64,000 nucleotides of DNA from contig CAJVZZ010000004.1 of the NCBI GenBank assembly GCA_913020435.1, positions 62,001 to 126,000 of the forward strand. The letters run 5' to 3'. The notes beneath the pieces were generated by a model that was given only the letters and a program-made list of their open reading frames with translations, ran no database searches and was not told where the DNA came from. How positions within the stretch are numbered: position 1 is the stretch's first letter; each line of letters starts with the position of its first letter. This document shows, piece after piece, positions 15,631-62,248 of this stretch. The translations under genes and the position numbers were made by a program. Source of the DNA: an uncultured Flavobacteriales bacterium (GTDB lineage: Bacteria > Bacteroidota > Bacteroidia > Flavobacteriales_G > Salibacteraceae).

Positions 15631-16281
15631 CTAATCCAATTCCAACTTATACCCAATTCCAAAAATGTAATCTTGATCAGGTCGAGCCTTGTTCATATCT
15701 CCTTGGTAGCGGTAAAAAAGTTCAATGAAGCTTTTCTTTTTCAATTCGTATTCAAACCCTCCAGTATATCGCTGTTTTTTCCAGTTGCTAAATCCTTCCG
15801 AGTATTCCCAACCGTAGAAAAACTCACCAGCGAGATATCCTTTGAATTTCTTACTGAACTTGTGCTGGTATTTTAATCTAAATCGCAGATTATCGTCCTC
15901 AATAGAATTTCTATAAAAATCTCGCTGAACTAATATTCTCAAATAAAAACGCTCTCCATTGAGCTTGAGCCTAAATGTGTTTTCAAAATCTACTCTTTGG
16001 TTCAGGCCAGAGCCTTTAATTCCAAATCTATAATTCGCACCTACTTTGTACCAGTCTGATAATGAATACTTAGCGCCTAGTTCACCAAAGGTCGTATTGA
16101 CCCTACTTACGTTTTGATTCAAACGTGTTTGGAATTGACCACCTACTGTGAATTTTTTACTGAATTCTTTACTTATTCCTGCACTGGTCCATAACTGAAA
16201 GTCCTTTTGCTGTGCAACGAGGTTTTTAGTTATCAGAAATACTAGACAGAGCAATCCAACGATATGTAGGCTTCTTTTCAA
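15631..16281 (-). CDS. DUF2490 outer-membrane beta-barrel protein
   Basis: A 216-aa protein with a signal peptide (LCLVFLITKNLVAQ). The mature part consists of alternating amphipathic strands with aromatic ends (QLWTSAGISKEFSKKFTVGG, KYSLSDWYKVGANYRF, GGFEYELKKKSFIELFYRYQ) and a final strand YIFGIGYKLELD, as expected for a small outer-membrane barrel. It matches the DUF2490 family. It is the last gene of the five-gene operon, two bases after the DUF4956 gene. DUF2490 barrels often accompany VTC/DUF4956 genes, suggesting the system reaches the outer membrane. Confidence 0.88.
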   Translation of the reverse strand: MKRSLHIVGLLCLVFLITKNLVAQQKDFQLWTSAGISKEFSKKFTVGGQFQTRLNQNVSRVNTTFGELGAKYSLSDWYKVGANYRFGIKGSGLNQRVDFENTFRLKLNGERFYLRILVQRDFYRNSIEDDNLRFRLKYQHKFSKKFKGYLAGEFFYGWEYSEGFSNWKKQRYTGGFEYELKKKSFIELFYRYQGDMNKARPDQDYIFGIGYKLELD

Positions 16282-16283
16282 GC

Positions 16284-16928
16284 TTATTTCTGCTTTTTAA
16301 AGTAGACCCTAATTCGTGCGGAATCTTTTAAATAATCCGCTTCCAATAATTCAACTTTATCGATCAATTTGCCCGTTCTTTCTTCCAGATCTGCAATAAG
16401 AATAGATTCGTTTTGGGGTTTTATATTCTCGATTTTCTCGTAGTTAACCGTCTGAATTTCAATACCCGAAGTTAAAATATAACGTTCTAATAAATACATT
16501 AACCCTAGAACAAAAAAGTTGGTAAAAACAAGTTCTGCATAGCTTACTTTTTTAGTGCTAATGGCATTCAAAACCGAAAGTCCAATAATCACAAACATGT
16601 AGGTCATTTCCTTTACCGGAATAGTTGTGGTTCTGTATCTAAGAATAGAGAACACTGCAAAAAGTCCAAATGCGAATCCAATACTTAGCTTAGTAGAGGC
16701 GAATAAATGGCAAATAAAGAACACCATTGGACTAAACACGAGGTAACTAAACAAGTACTCGCTGTCTCTTCTGGTGGCTTTATACACCTTCAAAATGATA
16801 GTGTAAGAAAACAATAGATTTATTGCTAAACGAAACAATAATTCATACAAATCTTCATTAAAAAGTTTTATTCCAAAGAGTCTAAGACTTTCCGAATCAA
16901 GAAGGATTATATCTGACAGTATATTCAT
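16284..16928 (-). CDS. DUF4956 membrane protein
   Basis: A 214-aa inner-membrane protein. Hydrophobic segments fall at about residues 28-45, 58-75, 80-92, 108-125 and 130-148. The conserved-looking loop SIGFAFGLFAVFSILRYRTTTIPVKEMTYMF is the hallmark of DUF4956, and the C-terminal 65 residues form a cytoplasmic domain ending VRIYFKKQK. The gene is two bases downstream of the VTC-domain gene. In many bacteria DUF4956 proteins are adjacent to VTC-domain polymerases, which suggests a membrane partner of the polymerase; no activity is established. Confidence 0.92.
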   Translation of the reverse strand: MNILSDIILLDSESLRLFGIKLFNEDLYELLFRLAINLLFSYTIILKVYKATRRDSEYLFSYLVFSPMVFFICHLFASTKLSIGFAFGLFAVFSILRYRTTTIPVKEMTYMFVIIGLSVLNAISTKKVSYAELVFTNFFVLGLMYLLERYILTSGIEIQTVNYEKIENIKPQNESILIADLEERTGKLIDKVELLEADYLKDSARIRVYFKKQK

Positions 16929-16930
16929 AA

Positions 16931-17683
16931 TTATTTAATTAATGCTGCTAATTTAACTTTTAATGGTTTAAAGCGATTGTGCTTGATATCTGGTCTGTGC
17001 ATCAATACTGCTGCGCAATATTTTGAAAAGCTACTTGGATAGATCTTTAATTTTTTGAGTTCTCGAACGAAGAGACTGTTATTTGAAAAACGCTCTTGTT
17101 TGATCTCCGCTATTACCACGTCCTCAAATAAATGAGTCTTTCTATTATAAACTGCCTCAAGGTTAATGTCCACCGTGAATTTTTCGGTCATAGCTTTATC
17201 AGCCATGGTAATTCTGCTGTAGTTAATTCCAATGGTTTCGGTGAGGTCGTTAAATCCAATTCCAAGTTGATCTTGAAGATAGTGCTCCGTCAAGTCACTT
17301 TTACCATCAGAAAAGGAGGGGAGTGCTATTCTTCTTTTTTCTGTTTTCGACTTATTGGTTTTCTTTTTTATTTCGAATACAAAAGGACCCTTTTCACTGT
17401 ATTGTCTAGACCTGACTTTAATGCGATTTAAGTAACCCGCATGGTGTTGTCTGAAGAATTCAAAGTTGGGGTAGTCGAAGTACACATTTTTGTAATGAAA
17501 CTGCCGTTCTCCGGCCATATCTAAGACGCAAACCTGTCCCTTTAATGCGGTAAAAAAGTCATTCAGCTTGGATGCCGGAAACATGAACTTAGTGTCAACT
17601 CGAGCATCAAAATCAACTTGAGCTAACGTTTTCAAATCAATTCCCTTGAATTCTTTTACGATATGTAAGTCGTTTGAAATCAA
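16931..17683 (-). CDS. VTC-domain (polyphosphate polymerase-type) protein
   Basis: A 250-aa cytoplasmic protein of the triphosphate tunnel metalloenzyme superfamily, related to the catalytic domain of yeast Vtc4 that makes polyphosphate from ATP. Tunnel residues are visible: RVDTKFMFP (about 28-36), YFDYPNFEFF, LNRIKVRSRQY (basic, about 86-96), FVFEIKKKTNKSKTEKRR (acidic/basic, about 102-120) and VVIAEIKQER (ExK, about 192-200). Only the domain is present, without an SPX domain. The start is a TTG whose last two bases overlap the TGA of the upstream lipoprotein gene. Lipoprotein, VTC, DUF4956 and DUF2490 are contiguous. Polymerase activity is inferred from family only. Confidence 0.92.
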   Translation of the reverse strand: MISNDLHIVKEFKGIDLKTLAQVDFDARVDTKFMFPASKLNDFFTALKGQVCVLDMAGERQFHYKNVYFDYPNFEFFRQHHAGYLNRIKVRSRQYSEKGPFVFEIKKKTNKSKTEKRRIALPSFSDGKSDLTEHYLQDQLGIGFNDLTETIGINYSRITMADKAMTEKFTVDINLEAVYNRKTHLFEDVVIAEIKQERFSNNSLFVRELKKLKIYPSSFSKYCAAVLMHRPDIKHNRFKPLKVKLAALIK

Positions 17684-18453
17684 GGATTACGAAAGTCAAT
17701 TACGATTAGTTCACCAGCATCAACATTAGTATCGGTTGCCGCAATAGTTATAGAGGTTGAAACTTGTGTTAAACCAGAAGGACAATTTAATGTTTTACAT
17801 TCTGACATCGCGTACAGCGTATAATTACCAGCCTTAAGTTCTTTAAATTCAAAGGAACCATCTGCGCTGCTTCTTACATCATCACTTTGTGTAGTTCCAT
17901 CACCATATATAATATACACACGCGTGTCCGGTTGCCCAACTATTCCAAGCGTGTCGCGAATCTCATTGTCATCAATGTATATTGCAATTAGTTTTCCTTT
18001 TAATATTGCAACACCGCCTTTTCCAGCTCCAACCCCAACATTACAACCTCTACCAGTAATCCTTACCACGTTTGTTGTTTCCAATTCCAGCTCATCTTCT
18101 TTTTTCGGAATTTCAATTTCCTGAATAACTTCTTCTTTTCCGGTAGGGCAAGTCAGACATTCAGAGTAGGCTATAATTGAGTATTTACCAGGCTGCAGAT
18201 ACTCAAATTTGAATGAGCCATCTGGTGCAGTGCGAATATCGTCGTCTAATGCTCCTGTAGCACCATAACTAATATATACACGCTCGTCTGGTACAGCTAT
18301 GTCAGCTGCCAATGTTCTGCCATCGTCTTCGCATAAATAGGTTCCAATTAATTTTCCTGTGATCGTTGTTTTACCCCCAGTTCCTGGCTCTTTCTTGCAT
18401 GCCATAAATGCAAAAGCGATGAGGACGATTGCTAGATATTTTGTAGTATTCAT
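17680..18453 (-). CDS. Lipoprotein with two Ig-like (carboxypeptidase-regulatory-like) repeats
   Basis: A 257-aa lipoprotein (IVLIAFAFMACKKEPG, lipidated Cys near 19). Two homologous repeats cover about residues 30-120 and 145-245. Each has G-K-L-I, PD(E/T)RVY-I-YG, DD-R-(T/S)(A/S)-DGSF-F--L--G-Y---A-SEC and C-P-(T/S)G. This is the usual layout of CarboxypepD_reg/SdrB-type beta sandwiches that line cell-surface proteins. Cys pairs in SEC..CP are repeated in both units. It is gene 2 of the operon, between the lamin-tail protein (three-base gap) and the VTC gene (TTGA overlap). Specific role unknown. Confidence 0.8.
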   Translation of the reverse strand: MNTTKYLAIVLIAFAFMACKKEPGTGGKTTITGKLIGTYLCEDDGRTLAADIAVPDERVYISYGATGALDDDIRTAPDGSFKFEYLQPGKYSIIAYSECLTCPTGKEEVIQEIEIPKKEDELELETTNVVRITGRGCNVGVGAGKGGVAILKGKLIAIYIDDNEIRDTLGIVGQPDTRVYIIYGDGTTQSDDVRSSADGSFEFKELKAGNYTLYAMSECKTLNCPSGLTQVSTSITIAATDTNVDAGELIVIDFRNP

Positions 18454-18456
18454 AAA

Positions 18457-19194
18457 TTATCTTTTTAAAATACGATAGGTGTCTTTACCAATCAATAGTT
18501 TGTATTTCCCTTTTTCGTAGGTAGAAAATTGAATGGTAGCAGAGGCACTTTCAAGTTTCGTCTTGTATAGAACTTTGTCCGTTTTATTATCTAATACTTT
18601 GACCAAATATGTTTCTCCTTGGGGGTTCAATAACTTCACGGAGTAATTGTTTTCAGTCATAGTAATGGTAACCAAAGTTTTTGATTTTCCTTTTAAATCT
18701 GAGACAAAAATGCTACCAGTTTTATTCACTTTTTCTGGAGTAGGAATCAAATAGTCTTTATCTTTTCCACCATCAGGTAAATGACCAAAGCTAATGTTTG
18801 AAAATTGTCTTTTGTATTTTAGAGCATGACAAAGTGTGCCATCTGGAAAACTTAAAAAGAGCTTTTCACCTTTTTGGCTCAATTTAAAATTGGTGTTTAA
18901 TTCCTTTCCTTTTGCAGTTCCATTAGCCCAAAGTAAAAGGAATCCTTTTGATGCAATTTGAGTTCCAGCCGGAAGGGCAAACATTTTTAGACTGTCCTTA
19001 TGATCGGATAAAAAATAGCCTGATAAATCGACAGTTTTAGCACTATAATTGTACAATTCAATATAATCCTGAGATTTCCCTGCATCATTCTTAACCAAAC
19101 CTTTGTTCTGAGACAAGATTTCATTAATGAATACATCCTGCGCAAACGACTGAAAGCCTGTTAGTATAGAGAGAACGAATAATAAATTTTTCAT
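18457..19194 (-). CDS. Lamin-tail-domain (LTD) secreted protein
   Basis: A 245-aa protein with a signal peptide (LLFVLSILTGFQSFAQ). Residues about 20-140 form a lamin-tail domain: VFINEILSQNKGL, DYIELYNYSAKTVDLSGYFLSDH, ASKGFLLLWANGTAKGKE, LSQKGEKLFLSFPDGT and ISFGHLPDGG. The rest is a beta-rich tail (TETTY-like VKLLNPQGETYLVKV) resembling a sorting or immunoglobulin-like end, but it lacks the typical YPNP start of T9SS-A domains. It heads the five-gene operon and shows the same domain as the C-terminal part of the CotH protein at 41.4-43.8 kb. Confidence 0.88.
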   Translation of the reverse strand: MKNLLFVLSILTGFQSFAQDVFINEILSQNKGLVKNDAGKSQDYIELYNYSAKTVDLSGYFLSDHKDSLKMFALPAGTQIASKGFLLLWANGTAKGKELNTNFKLSQKGEKLFLSFPDGTLCHALKYKRQFSNISFGHLPDGGKDKDYLIPTPEKVNKTGSIFVSDLKGKSKTLVTITMTENNYSVKLLNPQGETYLVKVLDNKTDKVLYKTKLESASATIQFSTYEKGKYKLLIGKDTYRILKR

Positions 19195-27082: not shown

Positions 27083-27835
27083 CTTTATATCTTTTGTAGT
27101 TATAACAAATTGTGGGGCAAATAGTTTTTTCAAATTGTCATTATTTAATGGAGATGCTGCTGGTGATTTCCTGAACCTTCTTAGAAATTCAAAATCCAGT
27201 TTCCCTCAGTTATTTGAACTGTTTGATTGATAGGTGTTTTACTGAAAATGCTTTTGTTAAAATCCTTGGTTTGGCCAATGCTATTTCTAGACTTATGATA
27301 CTGTTGATTTTCCTTGTTCCCATTTCTTGCTGAATGAAAATACCAATAAAACTGCCTCCGTTATTGATAAAGCCTCTTTTGGGATTTACAGATGAAGAAT
27401 CAGATGCTCCCTTACTAATTCTTAGGTCTGTAAACTAAACATTATCAAAGTCGCCGTAATAGGCATCCCCGGAGAAAAAGACTTCATATAATCCATTAAG
27501 AATGGGTAATATAAGTGTCTAGATTTTCTAGGATAGAGGAGGTAAGTAAGTCTTGTAATTATTGTCCCTTCGAGTGTTTTGAGAGGAACGAACAAAAAGT
27601 ATCGAGAAGCTCTTATTTAATCTAAAAAAAACATTTTTTTAAGATACAGAAGCTTAGGAATTCTGGATTTAGAAATTACCCCAATACTTGATTTATCAAA
27701 CTCACACTAAAATCGTCAGCAAAAACCAACCTATAAACTCTTTAAAAAGTTAATTCTTGCGTTGGAATTTCTTTGTGTTGTTCTGCTATTCAACCTCCAC
27801 TTTGCGCATGGAAACTATTCATTTAATTTTCAGGA
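27083..27835. other. Long spacer with degraded minus-strand coding remnant
   Basis: On the minus strand between about 27520 and 27225 a frame reads LYEVFFSGDAYYGDFDNV, a TAG, FTDLRISKGASDSS, PKRGFINNGGSFIGIFI and SIISLEIALAKP before a stop. The sequence has protein-like composition but is broken by a stop, has no start and matches no family I can name. At 27563-27612 lies a short repeat (TGTCCCTTCGAGTG...GTATCGAGAAG) of a type often scattered in Bacteroidota. The remainder shows nothing. Confidence 0.4.
27563..27612. repeat. Dispersed TTCGAGTGTTTTGAGAGGAACGA-type element
   Basis: Begins TGTCCCTTCGAGTGTTTTG, continues GAGAGGAACGAACAAAAAG and ends TATCGAGAAGCTC. It resembles a short repeat seen between genes in many environmental Bacteroidota; a partial right end (CGTATCGAGAAGCTG) also occurs near 12476. 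Function unknown. Confidence 0.45.
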
Positions 27836-29305
27836 TTGTTTGCCCAAATTATACTTTATTTCAAAAGTAGTGGACTATCAATTCAGAAATACTCACTTTT
27901 GAGCACTGTGAATATCCTGAAAGAAAATACAATCACTCTAGCTATAGCGACGCTTTGCGCGGTCTATTTTGGCTATTATTTGTCGGTTATGAACTGGACT
28001 TCGGGAGGAGGAGATACTTACACGCATTTCCTATTTGCTAAATATGCCTTTCAACATCCCGAAAATTTTGTGAACCATTGGGGAAAACCTTTCTTCACAT
28101 TGTTGGCTGCACCATTTGCACAGTTGGGTTTAAAAGGAGTAGAAGCAATGAACATCGGTTGCGGAATTCTTGCGGGAATTTTTGCTGCATTGACGGCCAG
28201 AAGTTTGGGTTATAAGTTTAATTTTTTGGCTGTTGTTTTTACCGTTTTCGCTCCGGTTATGTACAACGGAATCTTCAGTTCATTGACAGAACCTATCGCA
28301 GCATTAGTGCTAATTTCTGGCGTGTATTTTTATTCAATTAAAAGATTTGATTTGGGAAGTTTAATATTCTCTTTTTTAATACTTTGCAGAACTGAAATAT
28401 TTATATTTTACCCGTTGTTTGTGTTGTTTTTATGGTGGTCAAAATCACTAAAATCAGCTCCTTATTTAGCTGTGGGATTTGTTTTATACAGTTTTTTGGG
28501 CTGGCCTTTTTATGATGATCTATTTTGGATCATAACCAAACAACCTTACAATCCTAGTTCGTCTGCATATGGAAGTGGAGACTTTTGGCATTATGCCGAT
28601 TCCTACGATCAAGTTATTCATCAGTTATTGAGCCTTTTGTTGCTCATTAGTCTCATTCGTTTTCCTTTTGATCTATTTTTAAAACGTAAACAGATTACAG
28701 ATACACTAAAGTTGGAACTATTGGTATTAAGCTTGATTGTCAGTTTCTTTTTTGCGCATTCTTTTGTTTGGTGGCTCGGCGCCGGTGCATCTGCTGGCTT
28801 AGTAAGAGTAATGATGGTTATCGTTCCGTTAATTAGTTTGTTTGCGCTAAAAGCATTGCAGTGGGACAGGATTTTCGAAAAAAAGTGGGTCCAAGCATTA
28901 GTTTCGATTGCTTGTATTGCTATTATGGTTGGTGTGGCAGAACATAAATACAATTTTCCAGTCAATGAAGATTTAGAAATCCGTACCATACGAAAACTAG
29001 ATAAAGCAGCTTTAGATAAAGAAAGAGCAGGAAACGACTTGTTCTATTATCATCCGTTTGCAGCAATACAACTAGACGCAAACCCTAAGGATACATTCGA
29101 AAAACGTTTCTATTTTAATGGAGAATTTAAAAGTATTTCTGATGTAAAAAAAGGCGACATATACCTGTGGGACAGTCACTTTGCAGTAAATGAAGGCGGT
29201 GTCAGTTTAGCTTTAATTGATACTCTTGGTTTTCAGTTAATTCAAGAACACGAAACCATATTAGAAGAGTATTCCTTCCAAGTCAAGGCTTTTAGGAAAT
29301 TGTGA
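27836..29305 (+). CDS. Multi-spanning membrane protein, GT-C glycosyltransferase-like
   Basis: Up to 489 aa with about ten hydrophobic segments. The first periplasmic loop NWTSGGGDTYTHFLFAKYAF carries acidic and polar residues after TM1, the place where GT-C lipid-linked sugar transferases keep their catalytic Asp. Other recognisable pieces are GKPFFTLLAAPF, FSSLTEPIAALVL, LILCRTEIFIFYPLF and a short soluble C-terminus (about 390-489). The ORF opens at a TTG (27836); TTG 27899 or GTG 27908 (VNILKENTI) are alternatives. No named family matched; the Dol-P-Man/mannosyltransferase group is the nearest by layout. Confidence 0.7.
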   Translation: MFAQIILYFKSSGLSIQKYSLLSTVNILKENTITLAIATLCAVYFGYYLSVMNWTSGGGDTYTHFLFAKYAFQHPENFVNHWGKPFFTLLAAPFAQLGLKGVEAMNIGCGILAGIFAALTARSLGYKFNFLAVVFTVFAPVMYNGIFSSLTEPIAALVLISGVYFYSIKRFDLGSLIFSFLILCRTEIFIFYPLFVLFLWWSKSLKSAPYLAVGFVLYSFLGWPFYDDLFWIITKQPYNPSSSAYGSGDFWHYADSYDQVIHQLLSLLLLISLIRFPFDLFLKRKQITDTLKLELLVLSLIVSFFFAHSFVWWLGAGASAGLVRVMMVIVPLISLFALKALQWDRIFEKKWVQALVSIACIAIMVGVAEHKYNFPVNEDLEIRTIRKLDKAALDKERAGNDLFYYHPFAAIQLDANPKDTFEKRFYFNGEFKSISDVKKGDIYLWDSHFAVNEGGVSLALIDTLGFQLIQEHETILEEYSFQVKAFRKL

Positions 29306-41434: not shown

Positions 41435-43783
41435 ATGAAATTATTTTACTCAATTCCAATCTTATGTTTTTTATTAAGTAGTTCTAACCTTGAAGCTCAA
41501 GATTTACCCTTAGAATTCAATTATTCATCAGACGGTCATAAACTCATAGTTGGAAATACGGTGACTACCGGTTTTTATGATGAATCCGAAATTGATACCA
41601 TCTTTCTTCAATTTTCTCAAACTAATTATTGGACCTTACTGGAACAGAATTATGAGGATAAAATCGAAATACCTGCAACTCTAACTCATAATGGAGTTGT
41701 TTACGATAGTGTGGGAGTTCGATTTAAGGGGAATACGTCCTACAAAAGATTAAGAAATTCAGATAAAACGTCTTTTGCAATATCAATGGACAGCTATATT
41801 GGAGGGCAAGATCTCGAAGGATATGAGTCTTTAAATTTAAGCAATGCCTTTCAAGATGAAACGGCAATGCGTGAGGTGCTTTATTTGAATGGAATAAGGA
41901 AGCACATTGCCGCTGCAAAGGGTAATTATGTTCAGTTGTTTTTAAATGGTCAAAATTGGGGAGTTTACCCTAATATCCAAGCACTCAACAAAGAACATGT
42001 GGGAGAATGGTTTTTAAATAATGATGCAACACGCTGGAGGTGCGAGGAAACTGTTGGAGCCGCAGGTAACCCTAGATTTAATGTTGGTTTTTCTTCATTA
42101 AATTACTTAGGCGATGCTGCTTCTGACTATACAGACCATTATACGCTTAAGAGTGCAGACAAAGCTGACCCTTGGTTGGATTTAGCCGTTGCATGCAGTC
42201 TAATTGATAAAACCACTTCATCAGCTGGAGTTAAAGCTCTCATAGAAAAATTTGATTTAGATCAAACCCTATGGTTTCTGGCTTCAGAAATAATTTTTAC
42301 CGATGATGACGGATATGTCTTTAAAGGGGGAATGGATTACTATGCATATTTTGATTTAGCCACAAATAGGTTGTTGCCAATCGAGTATGATGGCAATTCA
42401 TGTATGGCTGCGAATAAAGCTACTACATGGTCTCCGTTTTACAAAGAAACTGATGCCAATTTTGTTTTAATGAATAAATTAATGAAAGTTCCTGAGATTC
42501 GTCAACGGTATCTAGCTCATTTTAGAACCATGTTGAATACTGCTTTTGATACTACTAATTTGTTATTAAAAATAGATGAATATTCAGCATTAATGAGTCA
42601 GCGATATGCCAATGATCCAAAGGCAATGTCGACTGCTCAGCAGCACAATGCTGAAATTGCAAACTTGAAACAGTTTGTTCGAGATCGAAGTAATTATTTG
42701 TGGTCGAATGCAGAAGTGATGCAGCAAAGTATTGAAATTTCTAATGTATCTCATTTTGTAAACAATGTAGAGTGGGCTGATCCAGAGAATAGTGAGCAGG
42801 CAACAGTGGTTGCTACTGTTTCGGCGCCCAATCAGGTTTCTGCAATGAATTTAAATTACAGTACTGGCTTAGCCGGTCATTTTACCACCTTAACGATGTA
42901 TGATGATGGTATTCATGGTGATGGTACTGCTTCTGATGGCCAGTATGGGGCTTTTATCCCTGCTCAAATCGGTGGCCAATTTGTTCGATACTACATAGAA
43001 TCTATTTCTAACAATGCGTCAAACAGCAGGTCTTATCTGCCGGCTGGGGCAGAGCATGAAGTTTTCATTTACCAAGTTAAAGCTGGAGCTAAAGTTGAAA
43101 GTGACGTTGTAATCAATGAAATAATGGCTTCTAATAAAGTCTCATTTCCAGATCAAGATAATGAATACGATGATTGGATTGAGTTGTACAATAATGGATC
43201 TTCTTCAGTTGATATTTCTGGATATTTTTTATCGGATAAAAGTGTTGAAATTTTACAATGGCAGTTTCCTCAGGGAACAGTCATAGATGCTGGCGATTAT
43301 TTAATTGTCTGGTGCGATAACGACCTAGATCAAAAAGGACTGCATGCTAATTTTAAATTGTCTGCTTCTGGTGAAACAGTTTATCTAAATACGGATAAGG
43401 GAAATGTTGCAGATTTTGTGAATTATAGCGAGTATAAATCTGAATACTCATACTCTAGAGTACCAAATGGGACGGGAAATTTTGAATGGCAACATCCGAC
43501 ATTTGAAGAGTCTAACGAAACGCCTTTGACTGTTAATGATTTGCTCCAGTCTGAGGGAGTGTTTAGTGTTTTTCCTAATCCCACAAATTCAGTGTTTTCA
43601 GTTGTTGTGAGCCAGTCTTTAGAAAATGAAATATTAAAGGTTTTTAATATTGAAGGAAAGCTAATGGCAGAAGAGTTGGTTTCGGGTCAAAAATTAGAAA
43701 TCAATGTATCTGATTGGGAAACTGGTATATATATCATTAGACTAAGCAATGGCCAAGCAAAGCGTCTTGTTGTAAATCCTTGA
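41435..43783 (+). CDS. CotH-kinase-family protein with lamin-tail and T9SS domains
   Basis: A 782-aa secreted protein. Signal peptide (FLLSSSNLEAQ) is followed by the CotH region (about 75-420): VGVRFKGNTSYKRLRN, SLNLSNAFQDETAMREVL, FLASEIIFTDDDGYVFKGG and RLLPIEYDGNSCM. A lamin-tail domain comes next (about 555-680: VVINEIMASNKVSFPDQDNE, DISGYFLSDK, YLIVWCDNDLDQ). The C-terminus is a T9SS domain (FSVFPNPTNSVFSV, end KRLVVNP). B. subtilis CotH phosphorylates spore-coat proteins. It shares the lamin-tail domain with the head gene of the VTC operon 22 kb away, and CotH and VTC genes are often adjacent elsewhere. Activity here is inferred from family. Confidence 0.92.
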   Translation: MKLFYSIPILCFLLSSSNLEAQDLPLEFNYSSDGHKLIVGNTVTTGFYDESEIDTIFLQFSQTNYWTLLEQNYEDKIEIPATLTHNGVVYDSVGVRFKGNTSYKRLRNSDKTSFAISMDSYIGGQDLEGYESLNLSNAFQDETAMREVLYLNGIRKHIAAAKGNYVQLFLNGQNWGVYPNIQALNKEHVGEWFLNNDATRWRCEETVGAAGNPRFNVGFSSLNYLGDAASDYTDHYTLKSADKADPWLDLAVACSLIDKTTSSAGVKALIEKFDLDQTLWFLASEIIFTDDDGYVFKGGMDYYAYFDLATNRLLPIEYDGNSCMAANKATTWSPFYKETDANFVLMNKLMKVPEIRQRYLAHFRTMLNTAFDTTNLLLKIDEYSALMSQRYANDPKAMSTAQQHNAEIANLKQFVRDRSNYLWSNAEVMQQSIEISNVSHFVNNVEWADPENSEQATVVATVSAPNQVSAMNLNYSTGLAGHFTTLTMYDDGIHGDGTASDGQYGAFIPAQIGGQFVRYYIESISNNASNSRSYLPAGAEHEVFIYQVKAGAKVESDVVINEIMASNKVSFPDQDNEYDDWIELYNNGSSSVDISGYFLSDKSVEILQWQFPQGTVIDAGDYLIVWCDNDLDQKGLHANFKLSASGETVYLNTDKGNVADFVNYSEYKSEYSYSRVPNGTGNFEWQHPTFEESNETPLTVNDLLQSEGVFSVFPNPTNSVFSVVVSQSLENEILKVFNIEGKLMAEELVSGQKLEINVSDWETGIYIIRLSNGQAKRLVVNP

Positions 43784-59887: not shown

Positions 59888-62248
59888 ATGTCACTAAAAA
59901 AAATACTCCTCCAATTTCTAGCAATTGTCTCGATTACTTCGCTTGAAGCCCAAATTTCAACATCTACTATCACAGGAACCGTTGTCGATCAGCAATCTGG
60001 CTATACTATTCCGGGAGCAACTGTACTTCTTAAAAGTTCTAAGAAATTAACGGGAACTACTACGGACATTGATGGGAAATTTAAATTGGAAAACATTCCA
60101 GTTGGAAGGCATATTGTTCAAATCAATTTTCTGGGATATGAAGTTACAACATTATCAAACCTTCTTGTTAGTTCTGCGAAAGAGCTTAATCTAAATGTCC
60201 AATTGATTGAGAGTATAGAAGTTTTGAGTGAAGTGGTTATAACGGCTAGCGCCAATAAAATAGGAACAATTAATGAAATGTCCACAGTAAGTGCTCGTCA
60301 ATTCACAGTTGAGGAAGCTCAACGCTACAGTGGTGCTTTGCAAGATCCGGCAAGAATGGCTACGAATTTCGCGGGCGTGAGTGGAGCAAATGATTCAAGA
60401 AACGATATAATAATAAGAGGGAATTCGCCGATTGGTGTTCTGTGGCGTATGGAAGGAATCGACATTCCAAGTCCAAATCACTTTGCGTCTACAGGAACAA
60501 CTGGTGGTCCTGTGAGTATGTTAAATCTGAATAATTTATCAAACTCTGATTTTATGACGGGAGCCTGGACCGCGCAATATGGGAATGCCTTGAGTGGCGT
60601 TTTTGATTTGAACCTAAGAGAAGGAAGTACTCAAGATTATCAATTTTTGGGTCAAGTTGGTTTTAATGGATTTGAATTAGGTGCTGAAGGTCCAATGGGG
60701 AAGAATAAAAAGGCTTCTTTTCTATTGAATTATCGCTACAGTACCTTAGGATTATTTAGTGGGCTAGGAATAAATCTAGGAACTGGTGCTGCAATTCCTC
60801 AATATCAAGACTTAACATTCAAATTGAGTTTGCCTACAGAAAAAATAGGAAAATTCACAATTTTCGGACTTGGAGGAACTTCAGGCATTGAGTTTAAAGG
60901 AGTAGATTCAGATTCATTAGACTTATTCTCGAATGCCTTTTCCGATTCAAAGTATACAACTACGACAGGAATAATTGGCGCTTCACATGCTTATTTCATC
61001 AATAAAACAACACTATCAAAGTTAGTAATAGCATCATCTGCAACTAGAGATCAAGGCATCGTGGATAGTTTAACTCCAACTTATACAGATGCTATTAGAG
61101 TTTATGGGTATAACTATGGTCAAGACAAATACTCTATAAACTATAAAATTAACAAGAAGTTCAATGCGAAAAACACGGCTGTAGTGGGCGCGATTTATGA
61201 TCATTACGTAATTGATATGGTGGATTCTGTCCGAATGCCTTTTGGGTTTATTAATCTCACAGATGTAAAAGGTGAGCTTGACCTTATTCAAGGATACGCT
61301 CAATGGCAACATAAATTCAATTCTAAATTGACATTGAATTCGGGCCTACATGCTCAGTTTTTAATTCAGAATGAATCGAATTCAGTGGAGCCTAGATTAG
61401 GAGTTAAGTTTCAACCAATAAAACGCCACAGTATTACTGCTGGTGTTGGTTTACATTCGCAAATGCAGCCTATACCGGTTTACTTTATGCGTGATCCAAA
61501 CGGGATCATTCCGGGTGAGACGAATAGAGAATTAGATTTTACGAAAAGCTGGCATTATGTATTAGGACATGAGTATCTCTTGACGAAGAATATGAGGCTG
61601 AAAACAGAGCTTTATTATCAATACTTGTATGATGTTCCAATTGATAACTTTTCTAGCCCATTCAGTATGTTGAATGAAGGATCGGATTTTGGATTTTCGA
61701 ATCGAATCAACCTTAGTAATAGAGGTGAAGCCCGGAATTATGGAGTAGAGGTGACCTTAGAAAAGTTCTTTAGCAAGGGCTATTATTTCTTGACAACGAC
61801 TTCGGTATTTGATTCTAAATATACAGGAAGTGATGGTGTTGAGAGAAACACTGCATTCAATTCGAATTATGTAATGAACGCTTTAGGAGGTAAAGAATTT
61901 AAGTTGGGGGATAATGGCTTGTCGTTATCCTTAGATTCAAAAGTAAATATAGCAGGTGGTAGAAGATATACACCAATCGACCTAGAGGAAAGTAGAAAAA
62001 GAGGTGAAGAGTATCGCAATCCGACTCTGGCATTTTCTGAACAGTTTGATCCTTATTTCCGTTTGGATTTTAAAATTACATTGCGACAAAATAACGAGAA
62101 GTTTTCTCAGCAATTTTCAGTTGATTTGCAGAATGTTACAGCTAATAAAAACATATTTGCATATGGATATAACAATCGATCTGGAAATGTTGGAACAACC
62201 TATCAGCGCGGCTTTTTTCCAGATGTACTTTATAGAATATATTTCTAA
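59888..62248 (+). CDS. TonB-dependent receptor with carboxypeptidase-like N-domain
   Basis: A 786-aa outer-membrane receptor. Signal peptide (FLAIVSITSLEAQ) is followed by a carboxypeptidase-regulatory-like domain (about 25-115: STITGTVVDQQSGYTIPGAT, LTGTTTDIDGKFKLENIPVG, INFLGYEVTT). Then come the plug (about 120-240: NEMSTVSARQFTVEEAQRYS, GNSPIGVLWRMEGIDIPSPN) and a barrel with outward aromatic strands ending DVLYRIYF. No SusD-like partner follows; instead a LytS-type kinase and LytTR regulator come after it. Substrate unknown. Confidence 0.92.
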   Translation: MSLKKILLQFLAIVSITSLEAQISTSTITGTVVDQQSGYTIPGATVLLKSSKKLTGTTTDIDGKFKLENIPVGRHIVQINFLGYEVTTLSNLLVSSAKELNLNVQLIESIEVLSEVVITASANKIGTINEMSTVSARQFTVEEAQRYSGALQDPARMATNFAGVSGANDSRNDIIIRGNSPIGVLWRMEGIDIPSPNHFASTGTTGGPVSMLNLNNLSNSDFMTGAWTAQYGNALSGVFDLNLREGSTQDYQFLGQVGFNGFELGAEGPMGKNKKASFLLNYRYSTLGLFSGLGINLGTGAAIPQYQDLTFKLSLPTEKIGKFTIFGLGGTSGIEFKGVDSDSLDLFSNAFSDSKYTTTTGIIGASHAYFINKTTLSKLVIASSATRDQGIVDSLTPTYTDAIRVYGYNYGQDKYSINYKINKKFNAKNTAVVGAIYDHYVIDMVDSVRMPFGFINLTDVKGELDLIQGYAQWQHKFNSKLTLNSGLHAQFLIQNESNSVEPRLGVKFQPIKRHSITAGVGLHSQMQPIPVYFMRDPNGIIPGETNRELDFTKSWHYVLGHEYLLTKNMRLKTELYYQYLYDVPIDNFSSPFSMLNEGSDFGFSNRINLSNRGEARNYGVEVTLEKFFSKGYYFLTTTSVFDSKYTGSDGVERNTAFNSNYVMNALGGKEFKLGDNGLSLSLDSKVNIAGGRRYTPIDLEESRKRGEEYRNPTLAFSEQFDPYFRLDFKITLRQNNEKFSQQFSVDLQNVTANKNIFAYGYNNRSGNVGTTYQRGFFPDVLYRIYF

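Follow-up and report, generated by a model that had tools for sequence, protein, structure and literature searches.

A conserved VTC-DUF4956 operon with predicted surface proteins in Bacteroidota, linked to CotH at the genome level: a candidate envelope-spanning polyphosphate system

Introduction

Genes encoding CotH, a polyphosphate polymerase and DUF4956 have been described next to the Pel clusters of Gram-positive bacteria (PMC7112168, in the text available), and VTC genes and CotH also occur in the C. perfringens locus NELoc-2 according to the excerpt of a further study (PMC2879425). In S. intermedius the DUF4956-like protein SIR_1592 has been termed MgtC-like, and the accessible part of that report states that the three-gene synteny is not found outside the Pel locus (PMC12345266). 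In yeast, the sections at hand describe a polyphosphate chain that is passed straight into a basic membrane channel (PMC9911596). In the literature searched, the trio appeared in Gram-positive contexts only and no paper on a Bacteroidota operon was found; a table from an iron-response study, as far as its text is available, contains BT3498-99 (DUF4956, DUF2490) of B. thetaiotaomicron (PMC10434189). Here we analyse a five-gene operon of this kind, located on the minus strand at positions 15631-19194 of a stretch of 64,000 nucleotides (the window), which corresponds to positions 62,001 to 126,000 of contig CAJVZZ010000004.1 in assembly GCA_913020435.1 of an uncultured Flavobacteriales bacterium. 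Its five open reading frames (ORFs) are transcribed in the order lamin-tail domain (LTD) protein, transthyretin (TTR)-like lipoprotein, VTC, DUF4956 and DUF2490, and all five domain assignments exceed the Pfam gathering scores (E-values in brackets below):

18457..19194, minus strand: gene 1, exported LTD protein of 245 aa with a signal peptide (LTD, 9.5e-17); its C-terminus is weakly like a type-IX sorting domain, below the cut-off (Por_Secre_tail, 0.081; 13.7 bits against a cut-off of 27)
17680..18453, minus strand: gene 2, lipoprotein of 257 aa with a signal peptide ending in FMAC (CarboxypepD_reg, 9.7e-10), with two TTR-like/CarboxypepD_reg repeats found as two Pfam stretches
16931..17683, minus strand: gene 3, VTC-domain triphosphate-tunnel enzyme of 250 aa with a TTG start and without a membrane segment (VTC, 1.9e-19)
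16284..16928, minus strand: gene 4, DUF4956 inner-membrane protein of 214 aa (DUF4956, 3.3e-45)
15631..16281, minus strand: gene 5, DUF2490 protein of 216 aa with a signal peptide and a TTG start, a predicted outer-membrane barrel (DUF2490, 3.9e-17; Porin_4, 0.0039, below the cut-off)
17680..17683, minus strand: 4-bp overlap between the lipoprotein stop TGA and the VTC start TTG, read from the sequence

As far as the cited texts describe it, the Gram-positive Pel accessory set combines the same three families in one place, a secreted CotH, a VTC enzyme and a membrane DUF4956 protein. The Bacteroidota operon differs in being Gram-negative, in adding the TTR-like lipoprotein, the LTD protein and the DUF2490 barrel, in the type-IX sorting domains that Bacteroidota CotH proteins bear, and in the lack of a recurrent polysaccharide synthase among the neighbours tested. 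Like the eukaryotic VTC complex in the parts described, it has a tunnel fold, basic tunnel residues and a membrane partner encoded beside the enzyme; unlike that complex, the window VTC protein carries neither an SPX domain nor a fused membrane segment, its 250 aa comprising the VTC domain only, and none of the searches made matched DUF4956 to Vtc1. A CotH protein encoded 22 kb from the operon resembles the spore-coat CotH kinases, as the available text presents them (PMC7821199), in its CotH domain and in both strongly conserved aspartates, but differs from them in being fused to an LTD and a type-IX sorting domain and in carrying Asp in place of Asn. We rate the trio as already known but unexplained in Gram-positive Pel loci, and the Gram-negative form with added surface genes as new.

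The five genes form a conserved module

The initial annotation had placed a five-gene operon at these coordinates and on this strand, and ORF calling together with Pfam recovered all of it. Its description of the junctions stood as regards gaps of a few bases (3, 2 and 2 bp at the three other junctions), whereas of the two overlaps that it had listed only the one at 17680-17683 was found. The ratio of nonsynonymous to synonymous substitution rates (dN/dS) ranged from 0.007 to 0.225 for four genes compared with congener G001, in which VTC is frameshifted, and from 0.043 to 0.136 for five genes compared with congener G002, where dS is high; all tested operon genes are under purifying selection. 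In G001 the VTC gene is split into two frames (locus L047, 8497-8928 and 8873-9247), as the result of either a sequencing error or a recent inactivation. A promoter and terminator scan of the operon returned scores no better than those of shuffled sequences.

A named-genome scan with a DUF4956 alignment yielded 528 confirmed hits, the best 80 of which were taken as loci (genomes and loci are given here by G and L numbers); they come mostly from Bacteroidota metagenome-assembled genomes (MAGs), with one Planctomycetes genome and one Neomarinimicrobiota MAG. Among these best 80 of 528, 78 have VTC no more than 300 bp from DUF4956, 51 have DUF2490 within 1.5 kb and 30 have the lipoprotein within 4 kb, the counts for DUF2490, LTD and the lipoprotein being lower bounds. 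The full five-gene order is kept in three congeners (L047, L048, L049) and in L051, L052 and L054 (G005, G009, G014), as well as in G008 (L050), where the custom profile missed DUF2490 and Pfam found it; the order is thus found within the genus of the window genome and in further genera of its family. Homologues of the lipoprotein with a single repeat occupy the equivalent position in many loci, and 18 loci also encode a small exported protein directly upstream of VTC, where it often follows the lipoprotein. This 137-aa family had 19 listed hits, and L134 (opposite strand, coverage 0.00) was left out; the one member scanned had no Pfam match. The five genes are a conserved module, and operons of the same order across families, together with the 78 of 80 VTC-DUF4956 pairs, agree with the earlier proposal that they belong to one system.

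For distances to CotH and LTD genes, the 31 of the 80 loci with less than 5 kb on a side were set aside. In the remaining 49, CotH lies within 5 kb in 18, an LTD protein in 12 and either of them in 23. As in the Pel set, CotH, the polyphosphate polymerase and DUF4956 are therefore co-located in 18 of 49 loci, the window CotH standing 22 kb off.

Two pairs outside the Bacteroidota are near the Bacteroidota type, one in Adhaeretor mobilis (Planctomycetes; L140, 9082-10672) and one in the Neomarinimicrobiota MAG (L083, 9118-10621); both were possibly acquired by transfer.

CotH and LTD proteins

Two further features of the window concern CotH:

41435..43783, plus strand: CotH-LTD protein with a type-IX sorting domain (Pfam)
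27112..27836, no strand: site at which G001 and G002 carry a CotH-LTD gene that is absent from the window (synteny break and tblastn)

The protein at 41435-43783 is a putative CotH kinase, judged by its CotH domain (Pfam, 1.6e-36) and by its aspartates: two strongly conserved CotH columns (D in 46/51 and in 49/51) are both kept, and one of these residues would correspond to D228 of CotH. Its C-terminal part aligns with the standalone LTD protein of gene 1 at 30% over 212 aa, and the latter looks like a CotH-LTD protein minus the kinase domain. The placement of these genes varies. G004 and G017 lack a separate LTD gene and have a single LTD-CotH-LTD gene (1027 aa) after DUF2490, an arrangement that is similar in G022, where it is interrupted by contig ends; in G035, G049 and G052 a CotH-LTD gene heads the operon. 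Because of this variable placement and of the resemblance of the LTD protein to the CotH-LTD C-terminus, LTD and CotH-LTD look like two alternative versions of a single component. In two loci (L059, 1878-3398; L060, 11703-13388), genes beside or near the CotH-LTD gene of the module encode arylsulfotransferase-like proteins that bear type-IX sorting domains.

A tree was built from 89 CotH domains, leaving out L088, L117, L118 and L121, which were taken as near-copies, as well as short CotH fragments. The 38 rows that lie within 5 kb of DUF4956 imply 22 label changes, and well-supported branches force no fewer than 17 of these. The CotH genes near VTC are scattered over the tree, and therefore several CotH subfamilies entered or left the VTC/DUF4956 neighbourhood many times, a repeated recruitment that functional coupling predicts. 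The window CotH groups with orthologues in G001 and G005, both standing away from VTC, and at a deeper node with L056 (G035), the one operon-encoded member among the six rows of its clade. DUF2490 has a different CotH gene beside it in G002 and G003, and a further CotH-LTD gene is found about 8 kb upstream of the operon in G001 and G002; the window matches G001 through 27111 and then continues without this gene. A 734-aa CotH on contig C40 was considered as the orthologue of the operon-side CotH of the congeners, which the tree did not support. The CotH 22 kb away, to which the initial annotation had tentatively joined the operon, does share the LTD domain (Pfam) but is not the operon's nearest partner.

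VTC is strictly linked to DUF4956 and CotH at the genome level

Co-occurrence was counted in two Bacteroidota samples, 60 relatives and 148 genomes drawn from the phylum. VTC was found in 26 relatives (25 over the cut-off), DUF4956 in 29, CotH in 34, DUF2490 in 50 and LTD in 60; G023 was removed from the VTC set, its VTC match (E 4.2e-4) being under the cut-off and containing stops. In the phylum sample the corresponding numbers were 29 for VTC, 45 for DUF4956 and 60 for CotH. Both CotH and DUF4956 are encoded by 25/25 VTC genomes among the relatives and by 29/29 in the phylum sample, that is, by all 52 distinct VTC genomes over both samples. CotH occurs in 9/35 and 31/119 of the VTC-less genomes, respectively. 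The link survives controls for genome size (in genomes of at least 3.4 Mb, CotH in 26/26 VTC genomes against 27/55 VTC-less ones, p 9e-7) and for family (14 of 20000 within-family permutations as high). The association of CotH with VTC and DUF4956 that had been anticipated is thus non-random in Bacteroidota, while the converse link fails, 16 of the 45 DUF4956 genomes of the phylum sample being without VTC.

CotH also adjoins DUF2490 in G013 and G020, where neither VTC nor DUF4956 was found, and in G059 CotH, the lipoprotein and DUF2490 stand together at two places (L177, L178), with the VTC-DUF4956 pair apart and alone. The system seems to consist of two halves, and the surface half, made up of CotH/LTD, the lipoprotein and DUF2490, is found without VTC as well.

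Fold and residues of the VTC protein

The VTC protein scored 70.6 bits with PF09359 (cut-off 23), and its model, with a mean confidence score (pLDDT) of 93.2, found its best fold match in yeast Vtc4 (Z 18.2 to 3g3r_B, 213 aligned residues, 2.8 Å), followed at lower values by ygiF (Z 14.2) and AtTTM3 (Z 13.4). Eleven residues, R28, K32, R91, R93, E104, K106, K116, R157, E193, K195 and K221, are invariant in 67 VTC sequences. Structure and profile alignments equate R28 with R196 and K32 with K200 of Vtc4 (model residue 26 being Vtc4 194), the profile alignment matches the RxR at 91/93 with R264 and R266, and E193 and K221 are the equivalents of E426 and K458 by motif only. The equivalent of R373 is K168 in the window protein, with Arg in at least 90% of the sequences. 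K200 and R373 are tunnel residues of Vtc4. Vtc4-type tunnel residues, whose lack would have spoken against the initial annotation, are hence present.

In hydrolytic tunnel enzymes an acidic patch is formed by Glu2, Glu4, Glu90 and Glu171 (AtTTM3 numbering), and Vtc4 is basic there, according to the part of the source available (PMC4641920). Glu2 corresponds to R28 and, as judged by the E-x-K motif, Glu171 to K195, both basic and invariant in the 67 sequences. These basic residues at two of the four positions favour a polymerase, short of proof.

PPK1 is present in the genome of the window, in 27/29 VTC genomes and in 135/148 phylum genomes, and no CYTH proteins were found in the window genome. 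Since PPK1 accompanies VTC in 27/29 genomes, VTC is not the sole source of polyphosphate, which fits a dedicated exported pool. A role in bulk polyphosphate storage was also considered and is unlikely, given PPK1 in 135/148 genomes including this one.

DUF4956 and its export context

The DUF4956 model (pLDDT 88.7) has five predicted helices and a C-terminal ACT/ferredoxin-like domain, and an R-x-R at the end of the third helix (R97-x-R99) is kept in 131/131 sequences. The best Z among its VIA rows, most of which cover the small C-terminal domain, was 6.1, and hhalign gave no match to an MgtC profile, which was small (three sequences). In L147-L154, from seven genomes of family f40 and from G071, all VTC-less and with CotH present, DUF4956 is followed at 2-11 bp by genes for HlyD-like adaptors, with a second gene about 1 kb further along (7 of the 12 VTC-less DUF4956 loci of f40 were fetched). 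The adaptor assignment is moderate, with Biotin_lipoyl over the cut-off in L147 and L154 and HlyD_D23 just under it in L147, and the second gene is weakly TolC-like (OEP, 18.5 bits against 22 in L147; no match in L154). A clear HlyD_3 protein is encoded next to DUF4956 in G165 (L157), with VTC and two CotH-LTD genes following. Mainly because of this HlyD-like adaptor context, the gene neighbourhoods suggest DUF4956 as a candidate export component.

Considered by itself, the set in L147-L154, DUF4956 with a HlyD-like adaptor and a weakly TolC-like gene, might be a new tripartite exporter. Phosphatase genes also occur in DUF4956 operons, namely a purple acid phosphatase (L039, 9763-12871) and a PhoD-like one (L143, 10710-13262).

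A candidate polyphosphate system and its alternatives

On the basis of the operon and its conservation, of the VTC fold and residues and of the strict association with DUF4956 and CotH across genomes, we put forward, with chances that we hold to be a little short of even, an envelope-spanning polyphosphate system in which VTC would provide synthesis, DUF4956 export and the surface CotH/LTD proteins use. The soluble VTC enzyme would convert ATP into a growing chain of polyphosphate, or of something closely similar, at the cytoplasmic face; the DUF4956 membrane protein would carry the chain outward; and the TTR-like lipoprotein, the DUF2490 barrel and the type-IX-exported LTD or CotH-LTD proteins would accept the chain and put it to use at the outer membrane and the cell surface. 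The identity of the product, the export step and the use of the chain by the surface proteins are the parts that we infer. A more speculative extension, which we hold to be doubtful, is that exported polyphosphate serves as phosphate donor, or as a route to one, for secreted CotH kinases where ATP is absent; VTC with DUF4956 would then be a bacterial counterpart of the VTC synthase-translocase, one that would power phosphorylation at the cell surface.

Several observations weigh against this proposal. Other Vtc subunits, Vtc2 among them, match the fold nearly as well as Vtc4 (3g3o, Z 16.7), and a modelled fold alone does not prove VTC polymerase activity; Glu4 of AtTTM3 has its counterpart in D30, still acidic here where Vtc4 as aligned has Thr, and a VTC enzyme serving non-bulk polyphosphate is an assumption of the model. 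DUF4956 had no confident match in the PDB (sequence E of at most 1; Foldseek E of at most 0.001). Next to the active site, where Asn prevails among the CotH rows, the window CotH carries Asp, and of the 49 loci with sufficient flank only 18 have CotH within 5 kb. CotH and DUF4956 can persist together without VTC: CotH is retained in all 12 of the family f40 genomes that have DUF4956 and lack VTC. Lastly, in S. intermedius the loss of SIR_1592 (DUF4956-like) or SIR_1594 (CotH) lowers aggregation, and the accessible text reports no decrease for SIR_1593, the VTC-like member (PMC12345266).

This last result would suit a different arrangement, in which VTC, as a sensor, binds or hydrolyses triphosphates and gates DUF4956 by way of the ACT-like domain of the latter, the pair being a regulatory switch for surface proteins that makes no polymer. 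Hydrolases and cyclases make up the majority of characterised tunnel enzymes from bacteria, in the part of the source available (PMC4641920), and both the ACT/ferredoxin-like domain at the DUF4956 C-terminus and the acidic D30 are in keeping with such a switch. We consider it unlikely, though a serious contender, as R28 and K195 occupy two of the acidic-patch positions in 67/67 sequences, the closest folds are of the Vtc type and the DUF4956-HlyD neighbourhoods point to transport.

The exported polymer might itself be the product, with CotH as an assembly helper: polyphosphate on the surface or in the matrix, binding metals or joined to LTD proteins. This alternative shares the evidence for synthesis and export with the system proposed above, and would account for operons with LTD and without CotH (L047, L051, L052) and for the phosphatase genes in such operons (L039, L143). 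It is rather improbable in our view, as a mere matrix polymer would not require CotH, which is present in 52/52 VTC genomes.

The Pel context raises the further possibility that the set is an accessory to exopolysaccharide secretion, CotH, VTC and DUF4956 tuning the production or attachment of the polymer. In streptococci and clostridia CotH, the polyphosphate polymerase, DUF4956 and DUF4832 adjoin pelDEADAFG (PMC7112168, in the text available), and deletions of SIR_1592 and SIR_1594 alter the Pel level, according to the accessible part of that report (PMC12345266). We scanned 85 of 141 unannotated operonic ORFs together and some others singly, and no recurrent polysaccharide synthase appeared among those 85 (best 25 of 92 families) or among the ones scanned singly. 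The window operon has genes for an M14 peptidase and a UDG-type glycosylase in its flanks (Pfam) and no Pel genes, so that it is not contiguous with pelDEADAFG. The loci described here contradict a synteny limited to Pel as stated in the text available (PMC12345266), Pel being excluded only in the neighbours scanned, and an exopolysaccharide accessory is for the Bacteroidota operon a weaker candidate still.

That the genes are neighbours by chance is extremely improbable and was rejected: DUF2490 and LTD are so common (50/60 and 60/60 relatives) that their mere presence is uninformative, but the same-order operons across families, the 78/80 VTC-DUF4956 pairs, the 52/52 genome link and the size and family controls contradict it.

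Biological implications

The CotH/VTC/DUF4956 trio is not limited to Pel loci, and a predicted polymerase/exporter pair that stands alongside CotH in every sampled genome with the complete pair is a concrete, testable candidate. If the polyphosphate system proposed here is correct, roles would be assigned to DUF4956, DUF2490 and bacterial VTC proteins.

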